A DNA stretch of 64,000 nt from Amycolatopsis sp. 195334CR (GTDB lineage: Bacteria > Actinomycetota > Actinomycetes > Mycobacteriales > Pseudonocardiaceae). Shown piece by piece: positions 1 to 61,852 of this stretch (positions are counted from its first letter, which is position 1; every line of letters begins with the position of its first letter). Location of the stretch: assembly GCF_017309385.1 (NCBI RefSeq), contig NZ_JAFJMJ010000001.1:868001-932000 (forward strand). Direction: 5' to 3'. A program made the translations under genes and the position numbers. Under the pieces are notes generated by a model that saw nothing but the letters and a program-made list of their open reading frames with translations, made no database searches and was not told the origin of the DNA.

Positions 1-2384
1 ACCGCGCGCTGCAGGCCGATGCTCGCCAGATCACCGTGCTCGCCCCGCCCACCGTCGATCCCGCCGGCGGAGCCGCGGTCTGGTCCAACCTCGTCGGACT
101 CCTGCGCCCCGCCTGGCGACGTCTCTGGACCGGGCAACCCCACCTAGCGATGGAGTACGTGTTCGGCGAGCACGGCGTCACCGTCCAGTTGTGGGTCCCC
201 GGCGTCATCCCGCCCTCGCTGGTGGAACGCGCGGTCGAAGCCGCCTGGCCCGGCTCCCACACCCGCACCAACCCGGCCACATCCCCGTTCCCGGACCTGG
301 GAGCCGGGCGGCGGCGGATCACCGTCGGCGGGCAACTGCGCCTCGCCCGCTCCGAAGCCCTCCCGATCCGCACCAGCTTCGACGCCGACCCGATCCGCGG
401 GCTACTCGGCGCCCCGGTCGGGCTCGGCCGCGACGAACGCGCCTGCGTGCAGATCCTCGCCCGCCCCGTCACCGGCCGCCGCGTCGCCCAAGCCCGCCGC
501 GCCGCCCGCCGCGTGCACCACGGCACCTCAGGACGCGTCGGCGGCCGGATTCTCGACGCGATCACCCCCGGCGCGAACGCCACCCGCCCAGGACGGACTC
601 CGGACTCGCGCCGGATCAGTCAGGACCCGCAGCTGTCGCTGGAATATTCGGCGCAGAACAAGGCGATCGTGGGCAAGCAGCGCGGCTCGCAGTACGAGAC
701 CGTCGTGCGCTACGCCGTCGCCACCGATCTCCTCGCTGAGGCCGACGACGAACTGGCGCGTCAGGCCCGCGACACCGCGCGCGGGCGGGCGCACGCGCTG
801 GCCGCCGCGTTCGCCGCCTACACCGACCACAACCACTACACCCGCACCCGCCTGCACCACCCAGCCCGCGCGCTCGCCGCACGTCGCCTCGACCGCGGCG
901 ACCTGCTCTCGGTTCCCGAGCTCGCGGCGATCGCACACCTGCCCACCGACGCCGAGATCCCCGGCGTCGAACGCGCCGGCGCCAAAGCCGTCGCCCCGCC
1001 GCCCGGAATCGCCACGCCAGGGCCGGAAGTCAAACCGCTCGGGCGGTCCGATACCGGGCACGCCCGCCCCGTCGGGCTGCGGGTCGCGGACGCGCGCCAT
1101 CACTTGCACGTGCTGGGCGCCACCGGCTCCGGCAAATCCACGTTGCTGGGCAACATGATCCTCGACGACGCCGAGCACCATCGCGGCCTCGTCCTGATCG
1201 ACCCGAAAGGCGATCTGGTCACCGACGTCCTCAACCGGCTCCCCCGCAGCGCCGCGGAGCGGGTGGTGCTCTTCGACGCCGACTCCCTGCACCGCCCACC
1301 CGTCCTCAACCCCCTCGAAGGCGGCGAAACCGACCGTGAAGTCGACAACCTGGTCAGCGTGTTCCGGCGGGTGTATTCGGCGTTCTGGGGGCCGCGCACC
1401 GACGACCTCATGCGCGCCGCCTGCCTGACCCTGCGCGCACAGGAAAGCGTGCCCACGCTGGCCGACCTGCCGAAGCTCTTGTCCAGCGAGGCGTTCCGCT
1501 CCCGCATCACCGCCGGGCTGACCGACCCGGTGCTGACCGGCTTCTGGGAGTGGTACGACGAACTCACCGACAGCTCCCGCTCCCAGGTGATCTCACCACT
1601 GATGAACAAACTGCGCGCGTTCCTGCTACGCCCCTTCGTGAAAGAAGCCATCGCCGGAGGACGCTCCACAGTGGACATGTCCCAGGTACTCGACGAAGGC
1701 GGGATCTGCCTGGTCCGCATCCCCAAGGGCTCACTCGGAGAGGAAACAACCCGGCTGGTCGGATCGCTGGTCGTAGCCCGCACGTGGCAGGCCACCACCG
1801 CCCGCGCCCGCGTCCCGCAACGCCTGCGCCCCGACGCCAGCCTCATCGTCGACGAGTGCCACAACTTCCTGAACTTGCCCTACCCGCTGGAGGACATGCT
1901 CGCCGAAGCCCGCGGATTCCGCGTCTCGATGACACTGGCGCACCAGCACCTCGGACAGCTGACGCGCGAGCTGAAGGAAGGCATCTCCACCAACGCCCGC
2001 TCGAAGATCTTCTTCTCCGCCAGCCCGGAAGACGCCCGCGAACTCGCCCGCCACACCGCACCCCGGCTCTCCGACCACGACCTGTCCCACCTCGGCGTCT
2101 ACCACACCGCCACCCGGCTGGTCGTACGCGGCGAGGAAACCGAGCCGTTCACCATGACCACCACCCCGCTGCCCGACCCGACCCCCGGACGGGCACGGGA
2201 AATCCGCTCGATGCTGCGGGCCCGGCACCGCACGCACAGCGCAGCGACCGACGACGGCGGCACGGCAGCTCGCTCCGACGCTCCTGCCACCGCCACTACG
2301 GCAACAGCGCGCCCCGCCCCGGCCGGGCGCCGGGTTCCGCCGACCCGGCCGCCCAAGACCGACCCACGCCGCACCCGCCCCTGA
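1..2384 (+). CDS. VirD4/TraG-like conjugative coupling ATPase (5' end outside window)
   Basis: The reading frame is open to the left edge, so the start is not in the window; the first internal start codon is GTG at 36. About 360 residues after that GTG is a Walker A motif (GATGSGKST), followed by a strand ending in LIDPKGD, which is typical of HerA/VirD4/TraG-type DNA-pumping ATPases. Near residue 600 the Walker B-like LIVDECHNF is followed by a segment with HQHLGQL, as in the TraM-recognition part of coupling proteins. The N-terminal ~300 residues are Arg/Ala-rich and carry no motif I recognise; the last ~60 residues are a Pro/Thr/Arg-rich tail. Coupling proteins bring DNA to a conjugative export channel at the membrane. 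A replication-relaxation gene and a cell-wall hydrolase follow on the same strand, as in actinobacterial conjugative elements. A non-conjugative HerA-like ATPase is less likely. Confidence 0.85.
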   Translation, partial: RALQADARQITVLAPPTVDPAGGAAVWSNLVGLLRPAWRRLWTGQPHLAMEYVFGEHGVTVQLWVPGVIPPSLVERAVEAAWPGSHTRTNPATSPFPDLGAGRRRITVGGQLRLARSEALPIRTSFDADPIRGLLGAPVGLGRDERACVQILARPVTGRRVAQARRAARRVHHGTSGRVGGRILDAITPGANATRPGRTPDSRRISQDPQLSLEYSAQNKAIVGKQRGSQYETVVRYAVATDLLAEADDELARQARDTARGRAHALAAAFAAYTDHNHYTRTRLHHPARALAARRLDRGDLLSVPELAAIAHLPTDAEIPGVERAGAKAVAPPPGIATPGPEVKPLGRSDTGHARPVGLRVADARHHLHVLGATGSGKSTLLGNMILDDAEHHRGLVLIDPKGDLVTDVLNRLPRSAAERVVLFDADSLHRPPVLNPLEGGETDREVDNLVSVFRRVYSAFWGPRTDDLMRAACLTLRAQESVPTLADLPKLLSSEAFRSRITAGLTDPVLTGFWEWYDELTDSSRSQVISPLMNKLRAFLLRPFVKEAIAGGRSTVDMSQVLDEGGICLVRIPKGSLGEETTRLVGSLVVARTWQATTARARVPQRLRPDASLIVDECHNFLNLPYPLEDMLAEARGFRVSMTLAHQHLGQLTRELKEGISTNARSKIFFSASPEDARELARHTAPRLSDHDLSHLGVYHTATRLVVRGEETEPFTMTTTPLPDPTPGRAREIRSMLRARHRTHSAATDDGGTAARSDAPATATTATARPAPAGRRVPPTRPPKTDPRRTRP

Positions 2385-2512
2385 GCACCACGCGACACCC
2401 GCATTGCGCCGCACCAGCACGACACCGCCGAAACCACCGAACCCGAACGCGCAGAGTTCGGCCCGCCCACAACACGTGTCCACACCCTGTTGACAAACCG
2501 AGGAGCGCGCTC

Positions 2513-3601
2513 GTGATCACCACGACCACCCGCCAGCACAACCTGCGCAGCCATCTACCCGGCCGCCACACCGCCCGCGCCGCCAGTTCGGTCGAACACC
2601 AGGCCATGCTCGCCTCCCGCCTCACCACCCGCGACAAGTGGCTGCTGGCCTTGCTGCACGAACACCGGGTCCTGACCACACCCCAGATCCAGGACGCCGC
2701 CTTCCCCTCGGGCCGCTCGGCCCGCCAGCGCGTGCTCGATCTCTACCTCTGGCGCGCTGTCTCGAGGTTCCAGCCGTTTCGGCAGCTCGGTTCCGCGCCG
2801 ATGCACTACGTTCTCGGCCCCGCCGGGGCCGCGGTGCTCGCCGCCGAACACGGCCTGGAGGTCCGCGACCTCGGCTACCGGCACGACCGCGCCATGGCCA
2901 TCGCCCACAACCAGCGCCTCGCCCACACCGTCGGCGTCAACGACGTCTTCACCTCGCTGATCGCCCGCGCCCGCCACAGTACCGGCGAGGCGATGGTGGC
3001 CTGGTGGTCGGAAGCGCGCTGCGCCCGGCATTTCGGTGACCTCGTCATTCCCGACGGCTACGGCCGCTGGCGCACCCGCCACCGCGGCGGGGGCGCGCGG
3101 GAGGTGGAGTGGTTCCTCGAGTTCGACACCGGAACCGAGTCCCTGACCAAAGTCGGCCGCAAGCTGGCCGGCTACGCGCGGCTGGCCGAGTCCACCGGGA
3201 TCGCCACGCCGGTGCTGGTGTGGCTGCCCACCACCCGCCGCGAAGCCGGAGCCCGCACCGCTCTGGCCCGCGTGCACGCCGGACTCGACGACCCTCGTGC
3301 GGTGCCGGTGGCCACCGCCGCGGCCGAGCTGCTCGACCCCGCCGCCCCGCACCCGAGCCCGGCCGAGGCGGTGTGGCTGCCGCTGACCTCGGCACGCGCC
3401 GACCGCGCCGGCCCGCGGTACAGCCTCGCCGACCTCGCCGACGCCTGGCCCGGCCTGGCACCGCCAGCCGGCGGCGGCGAGGACGGTGACGGCGAGACCG
3501 ATGCCGGCGAGGCCGCGGTGGCCTCGCCGTATCGGCTGCCACCACCGAGTCCGATCCCGCCGCGGGCCACCCCGAACCGGGATGTTCGCGGCGAGCGCTG
3601 A
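2513..3601 (+). CDS. Replication-relaxation family protein
   Basis: The 362-residue product resembles the actinobacterial replication-relaxation (Replic_Relax) family. The N-terminal ~90 residues look like a winged helix (TTRDKWLLALLHEHRVLTT, then RSARQRVLDLYLW). The middle holds EVEWFLEFDTGTE and KLAGYARL, which recall the restriction-endonuclease-like core of this family. The tail is Pro-rich. GTG at 2513 is chosen because AGGAG lies 7 bases upstream; the frame is open much further left but overlaps the ATPase gene. Family members sit beside TraG-like ATPases in conjugative or plasmid elements and are thought to act on DNA at replication or transfer, though the biochemical role is not well defined. 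The 128 bases between this gene and the ATPase hold no other gene that I can see. Confidence 0.75.
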   Translation: MITTTTRQHNLRSHLPGRHTARAASSVEHQAMLASRLTTRDKWLLALLHEHRVLTTPQIQDAAFPSGRSARQRVLDLYLWRAVSRFQPFRQLGSAPMHYVLGPAGAAVLAAEHGLEVRDLGYRHDRAMAIAHNQRLAHTVGVNDVFTSLIARARHSTGEAMVAWWSEARCARHFGDLVIPDGYGRWRTRHRGGGAREVEWFLEFDTGTESLTKVGRKLAGYARLAESTGIATPVLVWLPTTRREAGARTALARVHAGLDDPRAVPVATAAAELLDPAAPHPSPAEAVWLPLTSARADRAGPRYSLADLADAWPGLAPPAGGGEDGDGETDAGEAAVASPYRLPPPSPIPPRATPNRDVRGER

Positions 3602-3692
3602 CACCACGGTTCTTCACGGTCCGTGTCCAGGAGGTTTCCGTGCTTGCGCGCTCGGGCGCCGTCCGTCACCGCGAAAGGGGAGCGATCTCACC

Positions 3693-4673
3693 ATGGGCAC
3701 CAAACTCGGGGCCGGTGCCGCCGCCCTGGTCCTCGCCGTCCCGCTACTCATCGCCGCCGGGCTCGCCGGCGTCGTCACCTCGCTGTTCGGCGGTAGCGGT
3801 TCGGCGAGTTCGCTGATCTGCACGCCCGAGGGCATACCGACCGGTACGGTGCCGGGCCTGACCGACGAGCAGATGGGCAACGCCGCCACCATCGTCGCGG
3901 TCGGCAAGCAGATGGGCGTGCCCGAACCGGGTTGGGTAGTCGCGATCGCCGCCGCGCTACAGGAAGCCGGTCTGCGCAACCTGCACCACGGTGACCGGGA
4001 CTCGCTCGGGTTGTTCCAGCAGCGGCCCTCGATGGGCTGGGGTACCCCGCAGCAGATCACCACACCGACCTACGCGGCAACAAAGTTCTTCGAACACCTC
4101 ACCGCCACACCGAACTGGCAGACGATGAGCGTCAACGACGCCGCCCAAGCCGTGCAGGGCTCGGGATTCCCGAACGCCTACGCCCAGCACGAGGACACCG
4201 CACGCCTCATCGTCTCCGCCGTGTCCGGCGTGCACTGTCAGCCCAGCCCCGTGATGGCCGGAACCGGGGACTGCACCACCATCCACGCACCCACCGCCGC
4301 CGCGATGACCGCGATCAACTACGCCTGCGGACAACGGGGACTGCCCTACGTCTGGGGCGGGAACGGGCCCGACGGCGGCCACGCCGGTTTCGACTGCTCC
4401 GCCCTGACCAAGGCCGCCTACGGCGCGGCGGGAATCACCCTGCCCCGCACCGCCCACACCCAGTTCCACGCCGGGCCACGGGTGCCCGACGGCCAGCCGC
4501 TGCTCCCCGGCGACCTCGTCTACTACGGCCCCACATCCAAAATCCGGCACGTCGGCCTCTACCTCGGCAACGGCAAAATGATCAACGCCCCCACCTTCGG
4601 CCAGCCCGTGCAAATCGACAACTACCGGCACACCGGCGACGACTACGCAGGCGCGACCCGTCCGAGTGCTTGA
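3693..4673 (+). CDS. NlpC/P60 peptidoglycan hydrolase with lysozyme-like domain
   Basis: The 326-residue protein begins with a hydrophobic anchor (about residues 5-35). Next comes a muramidase/transglycosylase-like stretch (LQEAGLRNL, then DSLGLFQQRPSMGWGT), then a C-terminal NlpC/P60 domain with YVWGGNGP, the catalytic Cys in FDCSALT (residue 235) and a His in RHVGLYLG (residue 286). It should cut the glycan and/or peptide parts of the cell wall from outside the membrane. Placement after a coupling ATPase and a replication-relaxation protein suggests it opens the wall for a conjugation channel; that role is inferred. ATG at 3693 is chosen because a GGGGAG site lies upstream and the product then starts with an anchor; upstream in-frame codons read as low-complexity sequence. 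The 295 bases that follow, before qatA, hold no convincing gene. Confidence 0.88.
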   Translation: MGTKLGAGAAALVLAVPLLIAAGLAGVVTSLFGGSGSASSLICTPEGIPTGTVPGLTDEQMGNAATIVAVGKQMGVPEPGWVVAIAAALQEAGLRNLHHGDRDSLGLFQQRPSMGWGTPQQITTPTYAATKFFEHLTATPNWQTMSVNDAAQAVQGSGFPNAYAQHEDTARLIVSAVSGVHCQPSPVMAGTGDCTTIHAPTAAAMTAINYACGQRGLPYVWGGNGPDGGHAGFDCSALTKAAYGAAGITLPRTAHTQFHAGPRVPDGQPLLPGDLVYYGPTSKIRHVGLYLGNGKMINAPTFGQPVQIDNYRHTGDDYAGATRPSA

Positions 4674-4968
4674 AGCACGCTACCTCCGACTTTACCGCCC
4701 GAGTCACCCGCTGACCGCCGCCCGCGAGAGCCGGATAATGCCACACATCTGGGATATTTAGATTCCATCAGCCCGTGGCATTCGACGCGATGTTGCTGGC
4801 CCGGAGCCGTTCAATAGTTGTCGCTGACTTCTTTCCGCAGAGACGATGGGTTGCTGCTGCACCATCATGTGGGCGTGTCGCACTGACTCCGAGTCCTACG
4901 TGACTGTCATGCTCAGGAGACGAGGGGTGACCGAGTCTATGCCGGTCACCGAGGATCATGGAGGTGCC

Positions 4969-6705
4969 GTGACGACCAGCCTGAACCCGGCCGGGATGGC
5001 CCTGTGGGATGACAACCCGTCGGCTGTCGACCTGCTGGGCTTCGACACGGTGGTCGCGGCCGTTGAAGGCGCCTTGGCGGTTGAGGGCCTGGACCCGCTC
5101 ACCATCGGTATCCATGCGCCTTGGGGCGGCGGGAAAACATCAGTGCTTGGGATGGTTGAAGAACGCCTCAAGGACCATCCAGGCTACGTAATCGTCCGTA
5201 CGGACCCGTGGGAGTATGACGACCATGATGATGTTCGTGGCACCCTAATCGCCGAAGTCCTGCATGAGCTAGAGAAGAAGTTTAAAGCAGACGGCCAGGT
5301 CAAGGAGAAGGTAAAGGACCTGGTCGAGCGCATTAGCTGGTCACGGGTTGCGAAGGCTGTCACTAAGGGCGCCATCTCGATGACGTGGAGCCCGGGCGAG
5401 ATCGTGGAGATTGTCAAAGCTTTCAAGCCCAAGGACCGTGAAACGCCAGAATCGATGTCGGGCTTTCGACCGGCGTTCGCGAAGTTCCTTGAAGAAAACC
5501 TTCCGCAGGTTAAGCGTGTGATTGTCCTCGTCGATGATCTCGACCGTTGCCTGCCCGATGCCGCGATGGCGACGCTCGAAGCCATCAAGCTGTTTCTGTC
5601 GGTGCCCAAGATGACCTTCGTCTTGGCGGCCGACCAGGAGATGGTCCGAGACGCCATCGCTGCGAGCCTCGACGCCAGCGGTCGGAGCGAGATCTTCGCG
5701 AATCGATACCTCGAAAAGATCGTCCAACTGCCGATCTCTCTGGCGCGGCTGACGGCGGACGAAACCTCAAACTACGTCGCCTTGCTCCTGGCATCAGGTT
5801 CCAGCCCTAACAAGGAGGCCTACACCAGCTTGGTGCAGCACTGCCGCGCACGCAGGCAGGCAGGTCAAACACCGCTCCTGGCAGACCTTGACCGGCTGGC
5901 TTGGCGACCGGATGAATCCCTGCTCAAGCTGGCTGATCAAATCGCCACCGGACTGTCGTCCGACAAGGCCAGCAACCCGCGGCACGTGAAGCGCTTCCTC
6001 AACGCATTCGGTGTCCGGACCCAGATCGCCAAGACGCACGGGCTGACAATCGCGCCGGCCGTGCTGGCCAAGCTCTACCTCCTCGAAGATCGGTTCCTCA
6101 ACGAGTTTGAACACTTGGTGAGCCTGTCCGAGGCAGAGCGCCGGGAGCTGCTCGCGGAATGGGAGAAGTGGGGTCGCGGGGAAACCGACGACGTGCCGGG
6201 CAAGGTCAGTGAGGAGACGCGGGACTGGGCTGCGGTCGAGCCGTGGTTGGCCACGGAGCCACTCGCGCAGTACCTCACTCTTGCCGCATCGCTCACCAGC
6301 CTGGTCGCCGGCGCCAACCTGACCGACGAGCAGGCGCAGCTGGTGGCTGACCTGTCCTCGCCGACGGAGACTATCCGGACCGACGCATTGGGCCGCATCA
6401 AGGTTAAGGCGCTCGCTGAGCAGCGTGCCGTCGTCGTCGGGCTATTCGGCCGCGTACGCAAGCTCGATACCATCGTGGACCTTGTCAGCTCGCTAGTGGA
6501 GATGGCCAAGGCTCGACCAGAACTGGCGGATGAGATCGCCGATGGTATCCGGCAGAGCTGCTGGCAGAGGCTCGAAATGGCCAGCGCCCTCGAATTGGCC
6601 GAGAGCACCGTACCCGTCCTGAGTGGTCTCGCCGACCTACTCGAAACCGACGAAACCGCCGATCCCGCCGCTCGTGAGGCCGTCCGAATGGCAAGGGGCC
6701 AATAA
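4969..6705 (+). CDS. qatA: QatA: KAP-family P-loop ATPase of the Qat anti-phage system
   Basis: The 578-residue protein is a KAP NTPase. It has Walker A GIHAPWGGGKTS at residues 47-58, a DPWEYD segment shortly after, and Walker B VIVLVDDLDRC near 184-194 followed by EAIKLFLSVPKMTFVLAAD, a signature of the KAP class. The C-terminal part is helical and uncharacterised. It is the first gene of four in the order ATPase, QatB, QueC-like, TatD-like, which defines the Qat system. It overlaps qatB by one base (TAATG). The start is uncertain: GTG 4969 has GGAGG four bases upstream and begins just before the conserved DNPSAVDLLGFD region, but in-frame GTG 4927 and ATG 4939 are possible. Codon choice in the first part is less GC-biased than in its neighbours, consistent with separate acquisition. 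In the known system the ATPase is required for defence; its exact action is unclear. Confidence 0.93.
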   Translation: MTTSLNPAGMALWDDNPSAVDLLGFDTVVAAVEGALAVEGLDPLTIGIHAPWGGGKTSVLGMVEERLKDHPGYVIVRTDPWEYDDHDDVRGTLIAEVLHELEKKFKADGQVKEKVKDLVERISWSRVAKAVTKGAISMTWSPGEIVEIVKAFKPKDRETPESMSGFRPAFAKFLEENLPQVKRVIVLVDDLDRCLPDAAMATLEAIKLFLSVPKMTFVLAADQEMVRDAIAASLDASGRSEIFANRYLEKIVQLPISLARLTADETSNYVALLLASGSSPNKEAYTSLVQHCRARRQAGQTPLLADLDRLAWRPDESLLKLADQIATGLSSDKASNPRHVKRFLNAFGVRTQIAKTHGLTIAPAVLAKLYLLEDRFLNEFEHLVSLSEAERRELLAEWEKWGRGETDDVPGKVSEETRDWAAVEPWLATEPLAQYLTLAASLTSLVAGANLTDEQAQLVADLSSPTETIRTDALGRIKVKALAEQRAVVVGLFGRVRKLDTIVDLVSSLVEMAKARPELADEIADGIRQSCWQRLEMASALELAESTVPVLSGLADLLETDETADPAAREAVRMARGQ

Positions 6706-7556
6706 TGGGTACCTCCGGATCGTACGGCGGCAGCGGCTCCACGAACTGGCAGAACGCCCGCCAGGGATTTGACGGTCTGGGCGGCGGAGGCGACGGTTCT
6801 GGAACCGATGCGCCGCCACCGCCTTCTGGCAACCAACAGCCGGACCCAGACGCCGCAGCAGCAGCCGTCGCAGCCGCGATTGCCGCGGCACTGCTTGCCG
6901 AAGACTCACAAGCGCGACGACCCGCCAGTTCGGTTCCACTGTCGACGTTGCTGCCACGAGGTCGTGGTGGCGGCGGTAGCGGGGGCGGAGGTACAACAGG
7001 CCGGAGCGGCACGTCGGGCCGAGCGGGAGGCAGATCGCGCCGGCAGATGATGTCCGGCGCTCGTCGCGGGGGTGCCGCGCTCGGTGGTGCGTACGCGCTT
7101 CGCAATGGTGATGCCGCCGGTCTCCGCGAACTGGGGCTCGATCTGGGCGAACTATCGCAGCTGTCGCCTCGTGTTCAGCTGGCCAAGATCATCGACGCCA
7201 CGATCGGAGAGGCCGGTCACCCCGACGACTATGCCCTCAAGCGGGCCACCATCGAGCATCTCAAGTCCGTGCTACTTGCCGACACACCCCCACCGCCCGA
7301 GGTCAGCATCCGCAACTTCGTCGCCGAATGGATCTTTCAGCAGAGCCTGGTTGAGCTCCAAGCCGCGCGAGCCACCCGCGGCCGCACCCAACAGCAGGTC
7401 GACAGCGCCGAACGCCAACTTCGTGATTGGCTGAAGCGGCGCGTGCAGCGCATCGCGGTGTCGACGCAGGACCGACCATCAGTGCAGAACCTGGCCGACA
7501 TCACAGCCAAAATCACCGGTGAAGCGCTGCGACTGATCAAAGCGGGTACGTCATGA
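6705..7556 (+). CDS. qatB: QatB: Qat anti-phage system protein
   Basis: The 283-residue protein starts MGTSGSYGGSGS and has a long Gly/Ala/Pro-rich low-complexity N-terminal third, including a run of nine alanine-rich residues near 45-65 and a Gly-rich patch near 85-105. A helical C-terminal half begins near residue 115 (SRRQMMSGARRGG). I recognise it as QatB mainly by position between qatA and qatC and by its Gly-Thr-Ser N-terminus. It has no enzymatic motif that I can see. Its ATG overlaps the qatA stop by one base, and its stop overlaps the qatC start (ATGA), so the four proteins are probably made together. The glycine right after the initiator Met may matter, because QueC-like partners in defence systems have been proposed to modify a partner's N-terminal glycine; that is inference here. 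Confidence 0.85.
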   Translation: MGTSGSYGGSGSTNWQNARQGFDGLGGGGDGSGTDAPPPPSGNQQPDPDAAAAAVAAAIAAALLAEDSQARRPASSVPLSTLLPRGRGGGGSGGGGTTGRSGTSGRAGGRSRRQMMSGARRGGAALGGAYALRNGDAAGLRELGLDLGELSQLSPRVQLAKIIDATIGEAGHPDDYALKRATIEHLKSVLLADTPPPPEVSIRNFVAEWIFQQSLVELQAARATRGRTQQQVDSAERQLRDWLKRRVQRIAVSTQDRPSVQNLADITAKITGEALRLIKAGTS

Positions 7557-8821
7557 GCCAGTTTGAACTCCTGCCCTCCGATGCCAGCCAATTCGATCCG
7601 GGCGCACGACCCCTGCACTGGAGCCGTACGAACAGGGGGACGGGCTCAGTCAGCGGCAACCTCGACTGGACCCTCACCCGGCTGGCAACGCCGCATCCCG
7701 TCGCAGCCGACCTGCTACGCATATGCGCCGGCGCCTACCTCGCGGACCGGCTGACCAGCCGAGGCCAGGCGTTCACCCGCACGATTGAGCTAACCGTACA
7801 TGTGACCGAGACGACGACCTGGACCGCCGACGCCGTCGAACAGGTCGCGGACCTCCTGTGGTGGCTGACGGCCGACGACTGGACCATCCGGGTCGTACCC
7901 ACCGAGCCAAGCGAAGCTTCCGAGCTTCCTGCCCAGCCGCCGATCGATGAGGTGGCTCTACTCAGCGGCGGTCTCGACTCCCTGTGTGGCGCCGTGGATC
8001 AGCTCAACGACGGAACCAGCCGCCTCCTTCTGAGCCACGCGGACGGCACAACGGCCATTCAACACGCCCAGCGCCAGATCCGCGACTGGATTACCGAACG
8101 CGCTACCAACCCGCCAGAGTTCCTGACCATCACATTCGCGCAGACCGGCGCGAAGGCGGAATCGTCAAGTCGGAGCCGGAGTCTGCTGTTCGCCGCCCTG
8201 GCAACCGCCGCCGCGACCGCCCGTGGCGCCAGCCGTGTGGTGGTGCCCGAGAACGGCTACACCAGCATCAATCCTCCACTCACAACCGCCCGAGGCGGTG
8301 CATTGTCAACGCGCTCAACGCATCCGACCACCTTCGCTCGCATCAACCGCCTTCTAACCACGCTCGGCATCGGCGTCGCCATCGACGACCCCTACCTTGG
8401 GCTCGCCAAAGGCGAACTCGTAGCCCAAGCAGCGGCACACGTAGATCCGGCGGCGTTTGCCCAAGTCGTCGCCACCTCGCTGTCCTGCGGCAAGCTGGAC
8501 GGGACGTACTACAAGGGCGGCAACCCCAACTACAGCTGCGGTCTGTGCGTTCCGTGCATCGTCCGAAGGGCCTCAATATCCGCGGCAGGCCTCGACGATC
8601 ACACGCCCTACCTAGTTGACACACTGCCAGCTGCGTCCCGCCCACGGCTAATCACCAATCGCTCCGACGATATCCAGGCGATCCAGGAGGCACTCCGCCG
8701 GGGCATCTCCGAAGATGAACTACTGGCCTGCGGCCCCTGGCCGGACGACTTTGACCTCGACGCCGCCGTAGCCCTGTGTGCACGCGGCCTGCAGGAGATT
8801 GCGCGTGTCCCTCTACCCTGA
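7553..8821 (+). CDS. qatC: QatC: QueC-like PP-loop enzyme of the Qat system
   Basis: The 422-residue protein carries the PP-loop ATP-pyrophosphatase motif SGGLDS at residues 138-143, as in QueC (7-cyano-7-deazaguanine synthase). Near residues 312-335 is a cysteine cluster (SCGKLDG, then YSCGLCVPC) matching the QueC zinc site. A segment with VVVPENGY and TTFARINRLL follows the pattern of QueC-like defence proteins. The ~130-residue N-terminal region is extra compared with house-keeping QueC, which is usually about 220-240 residues. No queD, queE or queF gene is nearby, so queuosine synthesis is unlikely. The gene overlaps qatB by four bases; qatD starts 17 bases before its end. The role is anti-phage defence with QatA, QatB and QatD, and the substrate is not visible from sequence. 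Confidence 0.92.
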   Translation: MSQFELLPSDASQFDPGARPLHWSRTNRGTGSVSGNLDWTLTRLATPHPVAADLLRICAGAYLADRLTSRGQAFTRTIELTVHVTETTTWTADAVEQVADLLWWLTADDWTIRVVPTEPSEASELPAQPPIDEVALLSGGLDSLCGAVDQLNDGTSRLLLSHADGTTAIQHAQRQIRDWITERATNPPEFLTITFAQTGAKAESSSRSRSLLFAALATAAATARGASRVVVPENGYTSINPPLTTARGGALSTRSTHPTTFARINRLLTTLGIGVAIDDPYLGLAKGELVAQAAAHVDPAAFAQVVATSLSCGKLDGTYYKGGNPNYSCGLCVPCIVRRASISAAGLDDHTPYLVDTLPAASRPRLITNRSDDIQAIQEALRRGISEDELLACGPWPDDFDLDAAVALCARGLQEIARVPLP

Positions 8822-9569
8822 CCTGCCCCGCCTCGACTGCCACGCCCACATCGCTCCCGACGTCACCACCGAGCAGGTCCGGCGACTCGGCGACTGCGTA
8901 GTTTTCGCCGTCTCCCGCACCCTAGATGAGGGTTACGCTGCCCTGCGGCGGCGCAACGACGATCGCCTGATCTGGGGCTGGGGTGCCCATCCAGCGGTGC
9001 CCGAGGCGCTCGACACTTTCACTCCGGAACGGGCAGCCACACTGACAGGCAGACTGCCGCTCGTCGGCGAGATCGGTCTTGATCGCCGCGGTTCGAAAGA
9101 ACGGCAGACCGAGGTATTCGCCGCCGCCCTGCAGGCGGCGCAGGGACAGCCGGTCCTGATCTCGGTCCATAGCACCGGTCGCACGGCCGCCGTGATCGAC
9201 ACGGTTCGCGCCCACCCTCATCCCGGTCTCGTCCTGCACTGGTTCCTTGGCACCCCCACGGAAGTGGCCGCCGCCGCCGCCGCTGGTTGCTATTTCTCGG
9301 TCAACGCGGCGATGCCTATCGATGTCCTGCGCCGCATCCCGCAGGACCGGATGCTGCCAGAGACAGACTTCCCGGCCGGTCGTCGCACCGGTGGCGGTCG
9401 AATGCCAGGCGACACCGAGCAAGTCGAGGTCAAGGTGGCTGACCTACTCAGCATGACGCCCTCGCACGTACGTCAGATCTTCTGGAAGAACTTGCGTGAC
9501 ATCTCAGTCGCAAGTGGAGCGTTGGAGCGCTATCCCGAGCTAGTCGCCGACATACTCCTAACTCTCTAA
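8805..9569 (+). CDS. qatD: QatD: TatD-like metal-dependent hydrolase of the Qat system
   Basis: The 254-residue TatD-family protein of the amidohydrolase fold has the HxH metal motif near the start (DCHAHI, His13 and His15), GEIGLD in the middle, then SVHSTGR, LHWFLG and LPETDFP, which hold the other metal ligands. TatD enzymes are metal-dependent nucleases, and the QatD version is part of the four-gene Qat defence set. GTG at 8805 is preferred because AGGAG lies 7 bases upstream and the product then begins just before the first catalytic strand; an earlier start would add only an Arg-rich stretch overlapping qatC. The gene ends the operon, and a minus-strand gene converges on it 138 bases downstream. 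All metal-ligand positions that I can recognise are intact, so the operon looks functional. Confidence 0.92.
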   Translation: MSLYPDLPRLDCHAHIAPDVTTEQVRRLGDCVVFAVSRTLDEGYAALRRRNDDRLIWGWGAHPAVPEALDTFTPERAATLTGRLPLVGEIGLDRRGSKERQTEVFAAALQAAQGQPVLISVHSTGRTAAVIDTVRAHPHPGLVLHWFLGTPTEVAAAAAAGCYFSVNAAMPIDVLRRIPQDRMLPETDFPAGRRTGGGRMPGDTEQVEVKVADLLSMTPSHVRQIFWKNLRDISVASGALERYPELVADILLTL

Positions 9570-9707
9570 GGTCAACACTACGAACAGTTCGAATACCGCC
9601 GCTCCGCCAGCGAGCTAACAACTATTACATTTCCGGGGCAGATGTGCGCATTTTCCGAGCACAAATGGAACATCGCGCGATGCATTTGCTCAGGCGATGC
9701 GGAAGGA

Positions 9708-37302: not shown

Positions 37303-38231
37303 GACCGTTCACCTCCGCCAGCCGTCACGGCGTCGCCGTCAGGCGTCCTTGTCAGGTCCGGGGCGTCGAGCGCGAGCACCCGCGGCTGTCCGCCGCTGGT
37401 GGCAATCCGGGCGAGCCAAGCGAACCCGCCGGCGAACAGGCCGCCGATGCCCAGCAGGACGAGCTGGCCGGTGGCGGTGTTGTAGACGTCGAGGTAGGCG
37501 CGGTTGAACAGCACGACCCCGGCGGCGAAGGCGAGGGTGGTGGCGACGATGACCCGCACCGACGTGCGGGTCCGGGCGCGGCCGGTTTCCACCCGCATGC
37601 GCATCGCGGCCTGTCCGCGGGCGGTGGTGGCCAGGGAGCCGAGCAGGTCGCCGAGCTGGCGGGCCTGGTGCTCGGCGGCGAGGACGAGGGCGGCGAGGAC
37701 GAGGTCCGCGGTTGGGTCGTCCAGCTCGCGCGCCAGCGTTCGCAGCGCCGGCGGCAGGCGCTGCCCGCTTTCCAGCCTCGCGGCCAGCGTGGCGACCTCG
37801 CCGCGGATCGCCGCCGGCGCGAGTGGAGCGGTGGCGAGAATGGCTTGCTCGAGCCCGGCCGCGGCGGACAGGACGTCGCGCAGCATCTCCGTCCACGACG
37901 CGATCGCCTCGATCCGCGCGACCCGCCGCCGGTGGGCGCGGTCCGGGCCGACCATCCGGGGCAGGAACCACACCGCCGCTGCGGCCAGCACCGCGCCGAC
38001 GATCCACCCGGTCACGGCCCCGGTCAGCACGCCCGCGCCGACCGCCACGACCAGGCGCAGCAGAGCACGCCGGTCGCCGGCCTGGCCGCGCGCGGCGCGA
38101 GCCCACGTGCGAGGACGCGAGGGCGACGACACCGCCGCGGGCCGGCGCCAGGCGGCCACGACCAGCAGTACGCCGGCGGCGGCACCGAGACCGAGCGCGG
38201 CGGCAAAAATGGTGGTGGTGTCGAGGCTCAT
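37299..38231 (-). CDS. tadB: TadB-like pilus assembly membrane protein
   Basis: The 310-residue type II secretion F-domain protein has an N-terminal membrane segment (TIFAAALGLGAAAGVLLVVA), an Arg-rich loop and a second pair (VVAVGAGVLTGAVTGWIVGA; VLAAAAVWFLPRMV). The cytoplasmic F domain (IASWTEMLRDVLSAAAGLEQAI, ELDDPTADLVLAALVLAAEH) and a C-terminal pair follow. It starts inside the tadA stop (ATGA at 38228-38231) and ends inside the tadC start, so tadA, tadB and tadC are strictly coupled. Its role is the membrane platform for Flp pilus assembly. Confidence 0.9.
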   Translation of the reverse strand: MSLDTTTIFAAALGLGAAAGVLLVVAAWRRPAAVSSPSRPRTWARAARGQAGDRRALLRLVVAVGAGVLTGAVTGWIVGAVLAAAAVWFLPRMVGPDRAHRRRVARIEAIASWTEMLRDVLSAAAGLEQAILATAPLAPAAIRGEVATLAARLESGQRLPPALRTLARELDDPTADLVLAALVLAAEHQARQLGDLLGSLATTARGQAAMRMRVETGRARTRTSVRVIVATTLAFAAGVVLFNRAYLDVYNTATGQLVLLGIGGLFAGGFAWLARIATSGGQPRVLALDAPDLTRTPDGDAVTAGGGERS

Positions 38232-39607
38232 GGCGTCCACCACCCCTCCGGCCGACTGAGCAGATCCGGGTCGAATCCGGCGGCGACGAGGTCGTCGAGG
38301 GTGTCCGCACGCAACGCCCCGGCCACCGGGACGGCGCGGCGGTCCGGACCTTGGCGGTAGACCTCGTTGGAGATCACCGACCCGGCCTCGGCATCGACCA
38401 CCTCGCGAATAGAGGCGATCACGCGCGTGGTGCGATCGGCGGCACGGTCGAGGTGCACCACGAAATGCACCGCGCTCCCGACCAGCAAGGCGGTGGCTTC
38501 CAGCGGCAACCGTTCCGGACCCTGCGCGGCGTAGGAGGCGAGCCGGGTGAACGCGATCTTCGAACTGCTCGCGTGCAAGGTGGCCATGGAGCCGTCGTTG
38601 CCCTGGGACATGGCGTTGCACATCGGGATGACTTCGGCGCCGCGGATCTCGCCGACGATCACGCGGTCCGGGGACATGCGCAGCCCCCAGCGCACGAGTT
38701 CGGCTTGGTCGATCGCGCCCTCGCCCTCGACGTTGGGTTCGCGGGCCTGCAGGGCGGTGACATCGGCGTGCAGCTGCGGGTCCAGCCCGAGGCCGAGTTC
38801 GAAGGCGTCCTCGACGGTGACGACGCGTTCGAGGGGATCCATCTCCGCGGCCAGGCCCCGCAGGAGCGTGGTTTTCCCGGCGCCGGTGCCGCCGGTGATG
38901 AGCACGTTCTTGCGGGCTCGTACCAGCGCGCGCAGGAAGCGCTCCAGGCCGACGTCGAGGGTTCCGCGGCGGCGCAGCTGGGCGAGGGTGGCGGTGAGGT
39001 AGCCGTGCCGGCGGATCGTGCACGCCGTCACCCCACCCGCAGTCAGGCCGAGCACCGCGAAGAGCCGTTCGCCGCCGGGCAGTTGCAGGTTCAGCGCCGG
39101 GGAGCCGCGGTCGAACCGGCGCTCCTCGGATGAGGCGCGCGCCGCGAGCGTGCGAATCAGGTCGGTGAGTTCCTCGTTCGAGGCCGCCACCGGCGCAGCC
39201 TGGGTGCGGCTTCCGTCGTTGTACTGGACGAACACCCGGTCGTAGCGATTGACCGCGATCGTCTCCACCGACTGATCGGCCAGCAACGGCTGCAGACCTC
39301 CGAGGCCGAACATCTCGTCCAGCAGCTGCTCGACCACTCTCCGCTCGGTCTCGGAATCGAGCAGCGCGTGCCCGGCGAACAATTCGTCCTCGGTGTGCGC
39401 GGCACTCGCCTCGTCGAGGAGTTCACGACCGATCTCCCTGCGCTGCGACAAGCTCAATGGGCCACCACCGACGCCGGTGACTGCAGCAACTCGAGCCGGC
39501 AGGTCGGTATGCAGCGCCATCTGGAGTCGCGCGCGTAGCCGCTGTTCCGCGCCGGACATCCCTGCCTCGGATTGAGGTGCATGGCGCAGTTGCTTTATCG
39601 AGTTCAT
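38228..39607 (-). CDS. tadA: TadA/CpaF-type pilus assembly ATPase
   Basis: The 459-residue secretion ATPase has a conserved N-terminal domain (DEMFGLGGLQPLLADQSVETI), Walker A GGTGAGKTT (residues ~239-247), an acidic box near VVTVEDAFEL, Walker B-like RVIVGEIRGAEV, and the His box SMATLHASSS. It should hydrolyse ATP as a hexamer in the cytoplasm and drive Flp pilus assembly. ATG 39607 is chosen over the one three codons earlier because the upstream TadZ-like gene stops in a 4-base overlap with it (ATGA) and the GGAAAGG site then has normal spacing. Confidence 0.95.
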   Translation of the reverse strand: MNSIKQLRHAPQSEAGMSGAEQRLRARLQMALHTDLPARVAAVTGVGGGPLSLSQRREIGRELLDEASAAHTEDELFAGHALLDSETERRVVEQLLDEMFGLGGLQPLLADQSVETIAVNRYDRVFVQYNDGSRTQAAPVAASNEELTDLIRTLAARASSEERRFDRGSPALNLQLPGGERLFAVLGLTAGGVTACTIRRHGYLTATLAQLRRRGTLDVGLERFLRALVRARKNVLITGGTGAGKTTLLRGLAAEMDPLERVVTVEDAFELGLGLDPQLHADVTALQAREPNVEGEGAIDQAELVRWGLRMSPDRVIVGEIRGAEVIPMCNAMSQGNDGSMATLHASSSKIAFTRLASYAAQGPERLPLEATALLVGSAVHFVVHLDRAADRTTRVIASIREVVDAEAGSVISNEVYRQGPDRRAVPVAGALRADTLDDLVAAGFDPDLLSRPEGWWTP

Positions 39608-40479
39608 GGGCGCCATTCCTTTCCAGCGGCGGCGGACGGCAGTGGCGGCGCTCGCAACGGCTGCGGACCGGGCGCGACCGTGCCGTCGGGTTGGCGCACC
39701 AGTTGGGGCGGCACGCCTGGCACAGCTACCTCTGTGTTGGGCACCAGCGGTCCGGCTGGAGTGGGTGCTGCGAGGGCACGGGCGAGGGCGGCCGTCTGCC
39801 GTGCGAGACCTCTCGCGCCGCGACGGCGTTCCCGCGGCGGGTGTCCGGTCAGAGCGGCGGCAGCGGCCGGATCATGCGGGATGCGGCCGATCGTCGGCAC
39901 GCCGAGTTCACGCTCGACTTCGGCGGTCGCATAGCCGTCGCCAACGAGCAGCAGACCGGGACGCGGCGTCCAACGAGCCAGGTCACCCAGCCGGGCCGCG
40001 GTGTGGGCGAGGTCGTCGGCTCGGGAACCGGTCACCACGACCAGCGCGTCGGCACGGCGCGCAATCGGTTCCGCCGGTGAACCGGGATCGATGCGCCCGC
40101 AATCGGCCAGCACCACCACCCCCGGTTCCTGCGACACGGCCTGCACCAACGCCCCGCCCTGCGCGGCGACCAACGTGCACAACACGGCACGCGCATGTGT
40201 CCCGCCGGGCGGGGCCACCAACGCCCGCGCACCGCCAGGCAAGAACTGGGTGTGTTCCCAGACCACCGCCGGTTTCTGCGGGCGACGCGAGGCAGCAGCG
40301 AGGCTGACCAGGCCCGGTGTGATCGGCAACCCGAACCGCATCGCCAGATCACCCCCGGCCGGATCGACCTCGGCGACCAGCCGAGCGACGACGTCTGCCT
40401 TCGGCCACTGCCAGACGAGCGCCACGGCCAGGGCCGTCACGCCGGGCGAGCCGTGCAGCGAGCACAACGCGATCAGCAT
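39604..40479 (-). CDS. TadZ/CpaE-like MinD/ParA-type protein
   Basis: The 291-residue ParA/MinD-fold protein of the TadZ/CpaE type starts MLIALCSLHGSPGVTALAVA, where the usual GKGGxGKT P-loop is replaced by HGSPGVT, lacking the lysines. This loss is known in several TadZ-like proteins. Later segments (VAEVDPAGGDLAMRFGLP, VVVLADCGRIDP, ADALVVVTGSRADDL) follow the MinD plan with an intact DPAGGD switch-like motif. Such proteins place the pilus machine at a pole or site in the cell. The C-terminal ~60 residues are Pro-rich. The start overlaps the stop of the SAF-domain gene by one base (TGATG). Confidence 0.85.
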   Translation of the reverse strand: MLIALCSLHGSPGVTALAVALVWQWPKADVVARLVAEVDPAGGDLAMRFGLPITPGLVSLAAASRRPQKPAVVWEHTQFLPGGARALVAPPGGTHARAVLCTLVAAQGGALVQAVSQEPGVVVLADCGRIDPGSPAEPIARRADALVVVTGSRADDLAHTAARLGDLARWTPRPGLLLVGDGYATAEVERELGVPTIGRIPHDPAAAAALTGHPPRERRRGARGLARQTAALARALAAPTPAGPLVPNTEVAVPGVPPQLVRQPDGTVAPGPQPLRAPPLPSAAAGKEWRP

Positions 40480-59057: not shown

Positions 59058-60063
59058 GTGGCCCCCGCGCGAGCGGGCGTAGTCCGGCATGGACCGCCAC
59101 AGTGCGGAAAATCGCCGCGTGGCCCCTGCACGAACGGGGTGCTCCCCCGGTGATGCTGGACTCCACCAGGATTTCCATGTCTTCCCCGCGCAAGCGGAGG
59201 TGGCTCCACGTCCGCCAGGTTTGCGAGATCGGTGAACGCGTGGTCCGGGCGCGAGCAGAGGTGGTCCGCTCTGGCCGAGCGCGCAGAAGAAGGTCGAGGG
59301 GTTTGTCTCAGCACGGACCTGCCTCTGGTCTTCCCCGCACAAACGGGGATGGCCCCAAGTGACTCCACCTGCTCGGAGCGAAGCTCCGATCCTTCCCGCG
59401 CGAGCGGGGTCGTCCCTGCACGGCACGCACACCCGCGGCCGTACGGTGGTGGTCCCCGCGCGAGCGGGGGTGGTCCGTCGCCGACAGCTCGACGCTGCGG
59501 TCGTCAACGTGATCCCCGCGCGAGCGAAGGTGGTCCCTGCACCGTGCCCGCCATCGGCCCGGACCGCGCGTGGTCCCCCGCGCGAGCGGGGGCGGTCCCC
59601 TGTCGTACGTATCGGACCTCAAAGCGAATCTGTCGTCCCCGCGCGAGCGGGGTGGTCCCACAGACGGGCGCCGGAGCCGGTCGTGAGCTAGTCGTAGCCG
59701 CGCGAGCGGGGGTGGCCCTTCGAGTGCCAGGGTCTGCTCGGCGTCGCGGCCGTGGTACCCGCGCGAGCGGGGGTGGCCCCGAGGAACCCGGAGTGTCCGA
59801 CTGGAACCCCCGGTGGTCCCCGTGCGAGCGGGGGTGGCCCGTCCAGGTTCTCGGTCACGGAAACTATCTGCTTGTGGTCCCCGCGCTGTGGTCGCCGCGC
59901 GAGCGGGGTGTCCCAGCGCACGCGCTTGGCGTTCGCGATCCGGCATGTCGTCCCCGCGCGAGCGGGGGTGGTCCCAGCCCCGTGTGGTCCATCGGGACCG
60001 GCGCGAGCGGACTGACGACGTAGGTCTCGAACCGGGTCGTCCCGGCGCGAGCGAGGGTGGTCC
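59058..60063 (+). CRISPR. Decayed type I-E-like CRISPR array, no cas genes in the window
   Basis: About 16 recognisable repeats with consensus GTGGTCCCCGCGCGAGCG then GGGGTGGTCC (28 bases), spaced by 32-33-base spacers in a 61-base period. Clear repeats begin at 59058, 59119, 59179, 59240, 59328, 59388, 59449, 59509, 59570, 59632, 59691, 59752, 59813, 59888, 59947 and 60036; a degenerate one may lie at 59992. Only the repeat at 59449 equals the consensus; most others differ by 1-8 bases. Two intervals are 60-61 bases (after 59267 and after 59974). The repeat at 59888 is preceded by a partial duplicate (59874-59886). The GC-palindromic repeat is that of type I-E arrays. The inferred leader is left, but 58982-59057 is not AT-rich. 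The 216 bases after the array hold no gene. Confidence 0.93.
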
Positions 60064-60279
60064 GATCCCGTCCTGGTTGAGCGCGCTGCGGATTTGCCCA
60101 ATCCGAACGGGATCACTCGGTCTACAGCGATAGTGAACGGGTTCCGCCCATCTCACCGCGCGGTGCGGCAGGTGCGATTCTAGCCCGAACGCGCAGCCGT
60201 TAGCACTGGCTCGGTCAGCGCCGCTGCACGCGACCAGCCGCAGGTCAACTCTCGCGGCTGCACCGGGGCGCAGCCTCGG

Positions 60280-60762
60280 CTACTCGCGCTCGGCTCCGTC
60301 TGGCCAGACGACGGTGACTGGCAGACCGCGTCCACGAGCAGCGTCGACCACGTCAGCGGTACCGCCGTGGCCACCGGATGGCCCGCCGTCCCACACCGCG
60401 ACCATCGCGTCTACGTGGTCGAGAACGTGTTCGGAGGCGGCCATGTAGGCCTCGCGGTTCGATTCGGCGAACGGCATGGTGTGCACCGCTGCCGCCTTGC
60501 CGATCAGGTCGTCGAATTCGGCGGCGTTGCCCGGCTTGACCTTGCGCTCGCGGTAGTCGGCCGCGGGCAGCACCACTTCGACCGTGCCGGCGAGGTCGAG
60601 CACGACGCGGGTGAACACCTGGTCGGCGCCGCGGGCCAGGCAGCTCACCCCGACCAGGTCGCTGCCCGGGTGCCTGGCCAGGGCGGTGCGGATGCCGTCG
60701 GCGACCAGCGGCACGGTGGCGGCGGTCAGGTTCGAGTGGCCGGTGATTCCGATGCGGGGCAA
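60280..60762 (-). CDS. SLOG-fold protein
   Basis: The 160-residue product has the SLOG/LOG-type nucleotide fold. It starts PRIGITGHSNLTAATVPLVA, continues GVSCLARGADQVFTRVVLD, VEVVLPAADY, and ends with VAVWDGGPSGGHGGTADVVDAA, where the Gly-Gly loops would bind a nucleotide or ADP-ribose-like ligand. SLOG proteins include DprA/LOG-like enzymes and ligand sensors of defence systems. ATG 60762 is well placed. It begins 13 bases after the end of the next gene upstream, so co-transcription is likely. Confidence 0.75.
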   Translation of the reverse strand: MPRIGITGHSNLTAATVPLVADGIRTALARHPGSDLVGVSCLARGADQVFTRVVLDLAGTVEVVLPAADYRERKVKPGNAAEFDDLIGKAAAVHTMPFAESNREAYMAASEHVLDHVDAMVAVWDGGPSGGHGGTADVVDAARGRGLPVTVVWPDGAERE

Positions 60763-60775
60763 CAGGGTTCTTCTC

Positions 60776-61852
60776 CTACGCGGCGATCAGGTCAGCGATG
60801 GTCTCACGGGCCTCGCGCACGGCGCCGACGCTGGTGAACGGGGCGGCTTCGCGGTGGAAGTCGCGCAACTTCACCCCGACCCGGCCGGTCGTCCAGGCGC
60901 TGGCCAGCGGCACCGCCGCTTGGATCAGCTCGGCCGCCCGGCCTGGTTCTCGGGTGACCAGGTGCGCGCGGGCGAGCCCGATCAGGTCGAACGCGCGGTT
61001 ACGCGCACGGCCCGGGTTGCGCAACTGCAGCGCCCGGCTGATGTAGTCCTGGGCGCGGCGGGCGTGCTGGGGGACGTAGCGGGCCAGGTCCCGGTAGCGG
61101 GCGCCGATCACCCCGGCCAGTTCGGCGGCGTCGAGGCTGCGCGCAGTCGGTGTGGTGGCGTCGCGGTCCTGGGTGCCGTCGGCGTGGTAGTCCTCGGCCA
61201 GGCCGACCGCCCGCTGGAAGGCCCGGACATCGCCTTGCTGGGCGTAGGCCCAGGCTTCGCGGGTGGCGAGCACCGCTCGCAGGCGGGGTGTGGCGGTGCG
61301 CCGGGTGCCGTACTGGGCGAGCTGGACGACCTCGAGGCCGTCCGCGGGGCGTCCCAGGTCGAAGCACTGGCGCGCGAGCGACGCGAGCGCCACCGCGGCG
61401 AGGGCGTCGTCTCCGGCGGTGTGGGCGAGCTGGGCGGCCAGCACGAAGTAGCGCTGGGCGGTGCAATGCTCGCCGGCGTCCCAGGCCATGGTGGCGGCGA
61501 TGTCGGCCAGCTCGGCGCCGATGCGGAACCCGCGCAGGGTCTCCGCAGTGCCTTGCGGGGCGGCGCGCAGCCGGTTCACGTGGGCGCTGAGTTGCGCGGC
61601 GACGGTGGCGCGGGCGACGGTGCCGCGGGTGGTGTGCCAGGTCCGGAGCACGCTGACGAACTGCTCGGCGGCGTCCAGTTCCGGGGCGATGAAGGCGGTG
61701 CCGCGGCGGTCGGGCGTGACGAGCACGGGGTGGAGGAAGGGGTGCAGTTCGGCGGCGAGGGTGGCGCCGGTGAGCAGGGTCGCGCTCAGCACGCTCCGGC
61801 GGGACAGGGGCACCAGGTCATGATCGGTGATGCGGCCCGCGTGCTCCAGCAC
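60776..61852 (-). CDS. TPR-containing regulator-like protein lacking an HTH
   Basis: The 358-residue product starts with PLSRRSVLSATLLTGATLAA, the linker often seen after the HTH in actinomycete XRE-TPR regulators. A helical TPR-like array follows (HCTAQRYFVLAAQLAHTAGD; ALASLARQCFDLGRPADGLEV; AGVIGARYRDLARYVPQHAR). GTG 61852 has GGGAG upstream; the frame extends further left but as low-complexity sequence. No HTH remains, so it is either a truncated regulator or a free TPR partner. The SLOG gene follows it closely. Confidence 0.7.
   Translation of the reverse strand: MLEHAGRITDHDLVPLSRRSVLSATLLTGATLAAELHPFLHPVLVTPDRRGTAFIAPELDAAEQFVSVLRTWHTTRGTVARATVAAQLSAHVNRLRAAPQGTAETLRGFRIGAELADIAATMAWDAGEHCTAQRYFVLAAQLAHTAGDDALAAVALASLARQCFDLGRPADGLEVVQLAQYGTRRTATPRLRAVLATREAWAYAQQGDVRAFQRAVGLAEDYHADGTQDRDATTPTARSLDAAELAGVIGARYRDLARYVPQHARRAQDYISRALQLRNPGRARNRAFDLIGLARAHLVTREPGRAAELIQAAVPLASAWTTGRVGVKLRDFHREAAPFTSVGAVREARETIADLIAA

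Follow-up and report, generated by a model that had tools for sequence, protein, structure and literature searches.

Qat and related systems

The qatABCD operons of Pseudomonas aeruginosa and Escherichia coli act on phages and are composed of four genes in a fixed order (PMC13279940; structures 9zee, 9vlk, 9vll and 9y01). QatC is proposed to join 7-carboxy-7-deazaguanine (CDG) to Gly2 of its partner QatB by analogy with Cap9, the modification itself being at the stage of a proposal, and QatB plus QatC suffice against lambda-vir (PMC13279940). CDG use has been shown for Cap9 of the type IV cyclic-oligonucleotide-based antiphage signalling system (CBASS), which has Cap9, Cap10 and a CD-NTase and in which, again, a QueC-like enzyme goes with a partner whose N-terminus bears a glycine (PMC11996544; for Cap9, PMC13279940). 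Production of CDG requires QueD and QueE (PMC13329287). The locus described here is in Amycolatopsis sp. 195334CR (genome of 9.9 Mb on 7 contigs, with a completeness of 100% and a contamination of 2.6%), within a window of 64,000 bases that spans bases 868001–932000 of contig 1; at window positions 4969–9569 it has four genes in the same order as the known qat operons. The locus is very probably a full qatABCD anti-phage operon that belongs to a diverged actinobacterial branch and is carried as cargo by an integrative conjugative element; its QatC would probably join a carboxylate other than host-made CDG to Gly2 of QatB.

Qat is a known system, of which this operon is a variant, and its interest comes from the bearing of this lineage on QatC chemistry. 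That chemistry is open in print, and actinobacterial carriers of Qat in which no CDG synthase is detected make it a question that can be tested with a yes or no answer. We met no discussion of Qat carriers that lack QueE in the open-access literature on the Qat mechanism, as excerpted, and priority cannot be claimed.

The qatABCD operon of Amycolatopsis

The four genes are co-directional on the plus strand. qatA (4969..6705) encodes a KAP P-loop NTPase of 578 amino acids when read from the GTG at 4969, which is preceded by GGAGG with four bases between; an in-frame ATG at 4846 is an alternative start. The last base of qatA (6705) is also the first of qatB (6705..7556; 283 amino acids), a 1-base overlap, and qatC (7553..8821; 422 amino acids) overlaps the end of qatB by 4 bases. 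qatD (254 amino acids from a GTG at 8805, 8805..9569) begins 17 bases inside qatC, and a further in-frame GTG at 8778, upstream of 8805, is also open. The gene order and overlaps given in a preliminary description of this DNA proved correct. It called all motifs intact; P-loop and Walker B, MGTS, SGGLDS, zinc cysteines and TatD ligands were read here.

That description had also named the genes as qat. Profile searches agree: the best NCBIfam families of the four proteins are QatA, QatB, QatC and QatD, respectively, with scores under the equivalog cut-offs, and solved structures (for QatC and QatB) and the predicted fold of QatB add further support to the identity. Since all four proteins fall below these cut-offs, the operon is, judging from its sequence, a diverged actinobacterial branch of Qat. 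PADLOC models match QatA, QatC and QatD, and a PADLOC search with the four proteins gave no QatB match. QatA matches PF07693 (155.5 bits) and the PADLOC QatA model (E 3e-77), and its sole NCBIfam match is NF041923 (299 bits). QatD is a TatD-family hydrolase (PF01026, 91 bits; NF041926, 107 bits with a cut-off of 230). The QatA sequence holds what we take to be the P-loop and Walker B, and by eye QatD has HxH, E, H, H and ETD, presumably the TatD metal ligands, all intact.

Matches to all four proteins were found in 37 of 89 scanned loci, this operon included; a locus was counted when phmmer matched it with each of the window proteins, which does not prove the genes intact. The order A-B-C-D on one strand holds in 37 of 37, with QatA divided between two frames in one of them (L030).

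QatB

By sequence QatB is the weakest of the four (NF041924, E 4.6e-5, 23 bits, cut-off 100). A search of the PDB with the single sequence gave only weak matches to proteins other than QatB, the best of them on glycine-rich stretches. A profile built from 29 sequences of the QatB family matches chain A of 9vll, the QatC partner in that structure, with an E of 4e-10. The AlphaFold2 model of QatB has a mean pLDDT of 82.5, residues 1–8, 30–34 and 88–108 being below 50, and its sole high-probability Foldseek match in the PDB is 9y01_A, the QatB of the QatB-QatC complex (probability 1.00, TM 0.58 by target length; the next listed PDB match has a probability of 0.09). The helical core of this putative QatC substrate is like that of the P. 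aeruginosa and E. coli proteins.

The N-terminus reads MGTSGSYGGS, and the MGTS start is common to the window QatB and known QatB. All 41 distinct loci that have a QatB match and a readable start carry Gly2-Thr3; 36 begin with GTS after an ATG or GTG start, one with MGTC, two with MGTN and two with GTQ. The tally began from 44 matching loci, among which L001 and L007 represent the present operon twice, leaving 43, and two more are cut off before the start. Gly2 is essential in P. aeruginosa QatB, where G2D abolishes defence (PMC13279940). A chance row of KAP, QueC-like and TatD genes is ruled out by the conserved order, the MGTS start and the QatB fold.

QatC and the Thr280-to-Ser branch

QatC scores 263.8 bits with NF041925 (cut-off 280) and matches the QatC chains of 9vlk (E 1e-44) and 9zee (E 6e-42). 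It retains SGGLDS and the zinc motif C-x16-CGLCVPC, with cysteines C312, C329, C332 and C335. S156A/S161A abolishes Qat defence (PMC13279940). As in P. aeruginosa and E. coli QatC, the SGGxDS motif and the zinc cysteines are accompanied by sequence before and after the QueC core. The canonical QueC of preQ0 synthesis has the ATP-pyrophosphatase motif and zinc cysteines in common with the window protein, but the latter scores only 17 bits with the Pfam QueC model (cut-off 22) and has the extra terminal regions. Gene families, the Gly2 start of QatB and the ATP- and zinc-site residues are plain features of this operon.

A loop that corresponds to N265–H282 of P. aeruginosa QatC is also present in the window QatC. 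In the P. aeruginosa protein, T278 and T280 of this loop are reported to be invariant and jointly essential (PMC13279940). The residue equivalent to Thr280 is serine in 120 of 120 listed QatC protein rows, the query included (TRSTHP or TKSTHP); these rows were not picked by a motif pattern, but they are close relatives only. The motif is TRTTHP or TRTAHP in the Qat copies of three plasmids from outside the actinobacteria, and in a quick QatC tree four copies from actinobacteria that have Thr branch off on their own. With serine in every one of the 120 rows and threonine in other branches, the Ser280 form is, as far as these alignments go, the mark of a stable lineage of actinobacteria and not of damage to the window copy. 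The change from Thr280 to Ser is conservative; it is the mark of a variant and not a defining feature of Qat.

The comparison with type IV CBASS gives a different picture. No CD-NTase (MGGS start) is matched among the four genes, which rules out type IV CBASS, and TRSTHP takes the place of the Tyr/Asp site by which Cap9 holds CDG, as is the case in other QatC (PMC13279940). The only transglycosylase-family gene seen nearby is a DpdA gene 16 kb upstream, which also sets the locus apart from that system as described (PMC11996544).

By analogy with the Qat of Pseudomonas and E. coli, modification of QatB and defence against phages may be expected of this operon. Most likely, the initiator methionine of QatB would be removed, exposing Gly2, and the N-terminal tail would enter the QatC active site, where a carboxylate activated by QatC with ATP would be linked to Gly2. 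Once modified, the QatB-QatC complex would block phage growth, and QatA, as a DNA-binding NTPase, and QatD, as a TatD hydrolase, might set the range. Because most carriers examined, the host included, show no QueE, the carboxylate in this branch is probably not host-made CDG.

Association with a conjugative element

Genes for conjugation lie directly upstream of qatA on the same strand. The preliminary description had placed VirD4-like, Replic_Relax and NlpC genes beside the operon, and they were found there. A VirD4/TraD-like coupling protein, whose frame opens before the window (36..2384), matches TrwB_AAD_bind (26 bits), TraG-D_C (22.5 bits) and conju_CD1115 (41.8 bits, cut-off 250). It is followed by a Replic_Relax protein (1550..3601; PF13814, 181.8 bits), the frame of which is longer than the likely gene, with the domain at residues 366–554, and by an NlpC/P60 family protein of the conjugation module (3486..4673; PF00877, 86.7 bits). 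Farther upstream are a tyrosine integrase, a Recombinase-family gene, DNA methylases and a VirB4-like ATPase (283 bits, cut-off 325). One block holds the integrase and the VirB4-type ATPase together with the relaxation and coupling proteins.

In Actinokineospora diospyrosa, which has the nearest qat found, a related integrase (33% identical) and the conjugation genes up to and including NlpC are arranged in the order seen here, with qat 1.6 kb later. A further block common to both, at window 36–42 kb, contains a TadA/VirB11-like transfer-associated ATPase on the minus strand (38228..39616; TIGR03819, 227 bits, cut-off 373) that is 54% identical to the A. diospyrosa copy. The two elements differ in their degree of similarity from part to part. 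Backbone proteins are 33–68% identical and Qat proteins 90–93%; at the DNA level the conjugation backbone is ~65–80% identical where alignable, against 90.1% by blastn for the qat cargo block (plus strand, 4703..9571), which ends 2 bases past the qatD stop. The qat genes have a GC content of 64.6%, compared with 68.9% for the window.

A backbone shared with another genus, together with a far more similar qat block, shows an association with mobile elements. The suggestion that the operon travels on such an element is in this way supported at the DNA level; conjugation genes and qat are collinear in A. diospyrosa, and QatC relatives are also on plasmids. The data support the view that the operon is cargo of an integrative conjugative element with type IV secretion, transfer itself being inferred. 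Most simply read, these figures mean that related conjugative elements have exchanged qat as a cassette, and the operon would then show Qat moving in compact form among them.

This raises the question of whether the operon mainly serves the element, for instance against rival plasmids or elements, with phage defence secondary. In two elements the operon comes after the conjugation module, and a QatC match is present in 110 of 72,556 plasmid records (26 of them over at least 80% of the query; 34 conjugative, 16 mobilizable and 60 non-mobilizable). Characterised Qat operons, however, act on phages (PMC13279940), and we regard a role chiefly in the service of the element as improbable. A prophage origin is ruled out by the upstream conjugation genes and by QatC matches in just 2 of 50,697 phage records.

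CDG supply in Qat carriers

If QatC of this lineage used host-made CDG, carriers would be expected to have QueD and QueE. The survey comprised 56 genomes with a QatC match. The QueD family (PF01242) is present in 26 of these. QueE matches at E<=1e-3 occur in 10 genomes with TIGR04508 and in 17 with TIGR03365, and in nine genomes they were called real by score (at least 43 bits with TIGR04508 or at least 49 bits with TIGR03365); seven of the nine have the called QueE within 3 kb of a QueD match. The other matches, in one genome with TIGR04508 (22 bits) and in eight with TIGR03365 (19.5–25.2 bits), were called radical-SAM background. No QueE match passes the cut-off of TIGR03365 itself, and one passes that of TIGR04508. 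Controls for both models were positive in E. coli, B. subtilis, Caulobacter and archaea, mostly under the curated cut-offs.

QueE is present in all four non-actinobacterial genomes of the set. From the 37 four-gene loci, 36 genomes were examined, of which 35 are actinobacterial, host included (L031 also matches all four genes and is outside this set of 35). Among these 35, QueE was found in three and is absent from 32, a QueD-family gene is present in 16, and 19 have neither. The host genome gave no QueE match with TIGR04508 or TIGR03365. It has three weak PF06508 (QueC) matches in frames of 646–758 residues, which as read are asparagine-synthase-like, hence no canonical QueC appears detectable; in this the context differs from that of canonical QueC, and a canonical queuosine operon is ruled out. 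A QueE missed next to a QueD-family gene was also rejected for the seven examined of the 17 genomes with QueD only, namely the host and six others; beside the QueD-family gene there were few frames with CxxxCxxC or Cx14CxxC and none that looked QueE-like by eye. The positive controls for this reading (L096–L099, three different genes) all looked QueE-like.

A sample of the class gives the background rate. TIGR03365 matches at E<=1e-3 occur in 96 of 394 genomes, with at least 70 bits in 21 and a few more at 32–42 bits. QatC is matched in 11 of the 394, one of the matches being weak, and no QueE match of any strength occurs in these 11. With QueE this rare, the sample (Fisher's test, p = 1) gives no sign of avoidance, only of QatC without QueE. 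The loci of the 11 are short, and only five show a QatB match, though L012–L014 are long enough for a neighbour to be seen and have none. Some of the QatC-positive genomes, such as G018, G234 and G252, may fall outside Qat, as their QatC has no QatB match next to it.

With neither QueE nor canonical QueC detected in the host, and QueE missing from 32 of the 35 genomes, host-made CDG seems unlikely to be the general substrate of QatC. We lean slightly towards the view that in this lineage Gly2 of QatB is joined to a carboxylate other than CDG, or to CDG supplied by a phage, and that QatC is not an enzyme that deazaguanylates with host CDG. If so, the Thr280-to-Ser change and the lost Tyr/Asp nucleobase site would mark a change of substrate.

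Could QatC nevertheless use CDG, the cell taking it up or having an unrecognised synthase? QatB keeps the features named for a deazaguanylation substrate (PMC13279940), a member of the 7-deazaguanine DNA family, DpdA, is encoded on the element, which suggests that such bases are sometimes around, and A. diospyrosa has QueD and QueE. The absence of QueE from most actinobacterial carriers, in 19 cases together with any QueD-family gene, and the seven QueD neighbourhoods with no QueE-like frame argue against it. The published structure does so as well: CDG was not seen in the QatBC-ATP crystal despite 1 mM in the drop, and the Tyr/Asp residues that read CDG are replaced in QatC (PMC13279940). In that work QatC activity could not be reconstituted. 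On balance CDG use of this kind is rather unlikely, although it is the strongest of the competing accounts.

The DpdA gene (PF23859, 279 bits) is at contig 1:856119–857222 on the minus strand (8119–9222 of locus L093), beside DNA methylases and ~16 kb upstream of qatA. A second copy, at contig 1:810841–811562, lies 45 kb further up, its match split over three frames. DpdA occurs in 6 of 56 Qat-positive genomes, a count with no baseline rate for comparison. As for QatC, no preQ0 genes that would account for a substrate of DpdA were detected in the host.

Phages can carry the whole CDG route. Perhaps phages with 7-deazaguanine DNA bring CDG into hosts that lack queuosine, and QatC senses such phages. 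In the 50,697 phage records there are 399, including 391 from mycobacteriophages, that encode a relative of the element's DpdA, with none over 80% of the DpdA length. Against this reading, Qat acts on lambda-vir in E. coli (PMC13279940), a host with QueE according to the controls of both models, and sensing of phage-supplied CDG is in our estimate quite doubtful.

The preferred reading, a complete and diverged Qat operon carried by a conjugative element, with a carboxylate other than host CDG, has several points weighing against it. The NCBIfam scores are far from or short of the equivalog cut-offs (QatA 299 of 600 bits, QatB 23 of 100, QatC 264 of 280, QatD 107 of 230), and the fold match of QatB to 9y01_A has a Foldseek E of 0.06. 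In the alignment of the window QatC with the P. aeruginosa protein, T278 is kept as T253, whereas T280 becomes S255. Defence is partly kept without QatA or QatD in characterised Qat, and the role of these two proteins is unsure (PMC13279940). The ends of the element (att sites) were not found: a tRNA scan of 104 kb gave none, and a search for a flanking direct repeat gave none that was clear. The host has one QueD-family (PTPS) gene, at 35 bits with the QueD model (cut-off 89), which leaves a diverged CDG route in the host some small probability. Finally, the absence of QueE is negative evidence under two QueE models, taken in part from drafts or metagenome bins, so that single absences are weak and the pattern is not. 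In sum, the locus is unlike the P. aeruginosa and E. coli systems in its sub-cut-off scores, its serine for Thr280 and an actinobacterial host with no detectable QueE or canonical QueC.

It should be pointed out that few Qat carriers would be able to make CDG and that A. diospyrosa is one of them. At 577–580 kb of its contig C1 (G394; L116), ~30 kb from its qat, there are genes for QueE, QueD and a protein that by eye is FolE-like.

Other loci and repeats

The QatC alignment search returned 75 genome loci. Two patterns were used to find them, and since TRSTHP is part of one, this set is biased towards Ser280. QatC-like proteins with SGGLDS and the HP signature, and with no QatA, QatB or QatD match alongside, occur at loci L012–L014, L058–L060, L062, L065 and similar ones. 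L058 is from Pseudonocardiaceae, and many loci of the QatC-only type are from Armatimonadota. Possibly these represent another QueC-like system, or their partners are too diverged. A relative of QatC on a public contig (P0109) is a QatC-QatD fusion protein of 680 residues.

Two repeats were also noted on the contig. At window 59315–60067 there is a degenerate CRISPR-like array with a repeat near GTGGTCCCCGCGCGAGCGGGGGTGGTCC, a spacing of often ~61 bases and many mutated copies; the same repeat recurs ~108 kb upstream on the contig. A stretch of ~830 bases is present in two closely similar copies ~90 kb apart, at window ~60151–60985 and at contig 1 ~838072–838907.

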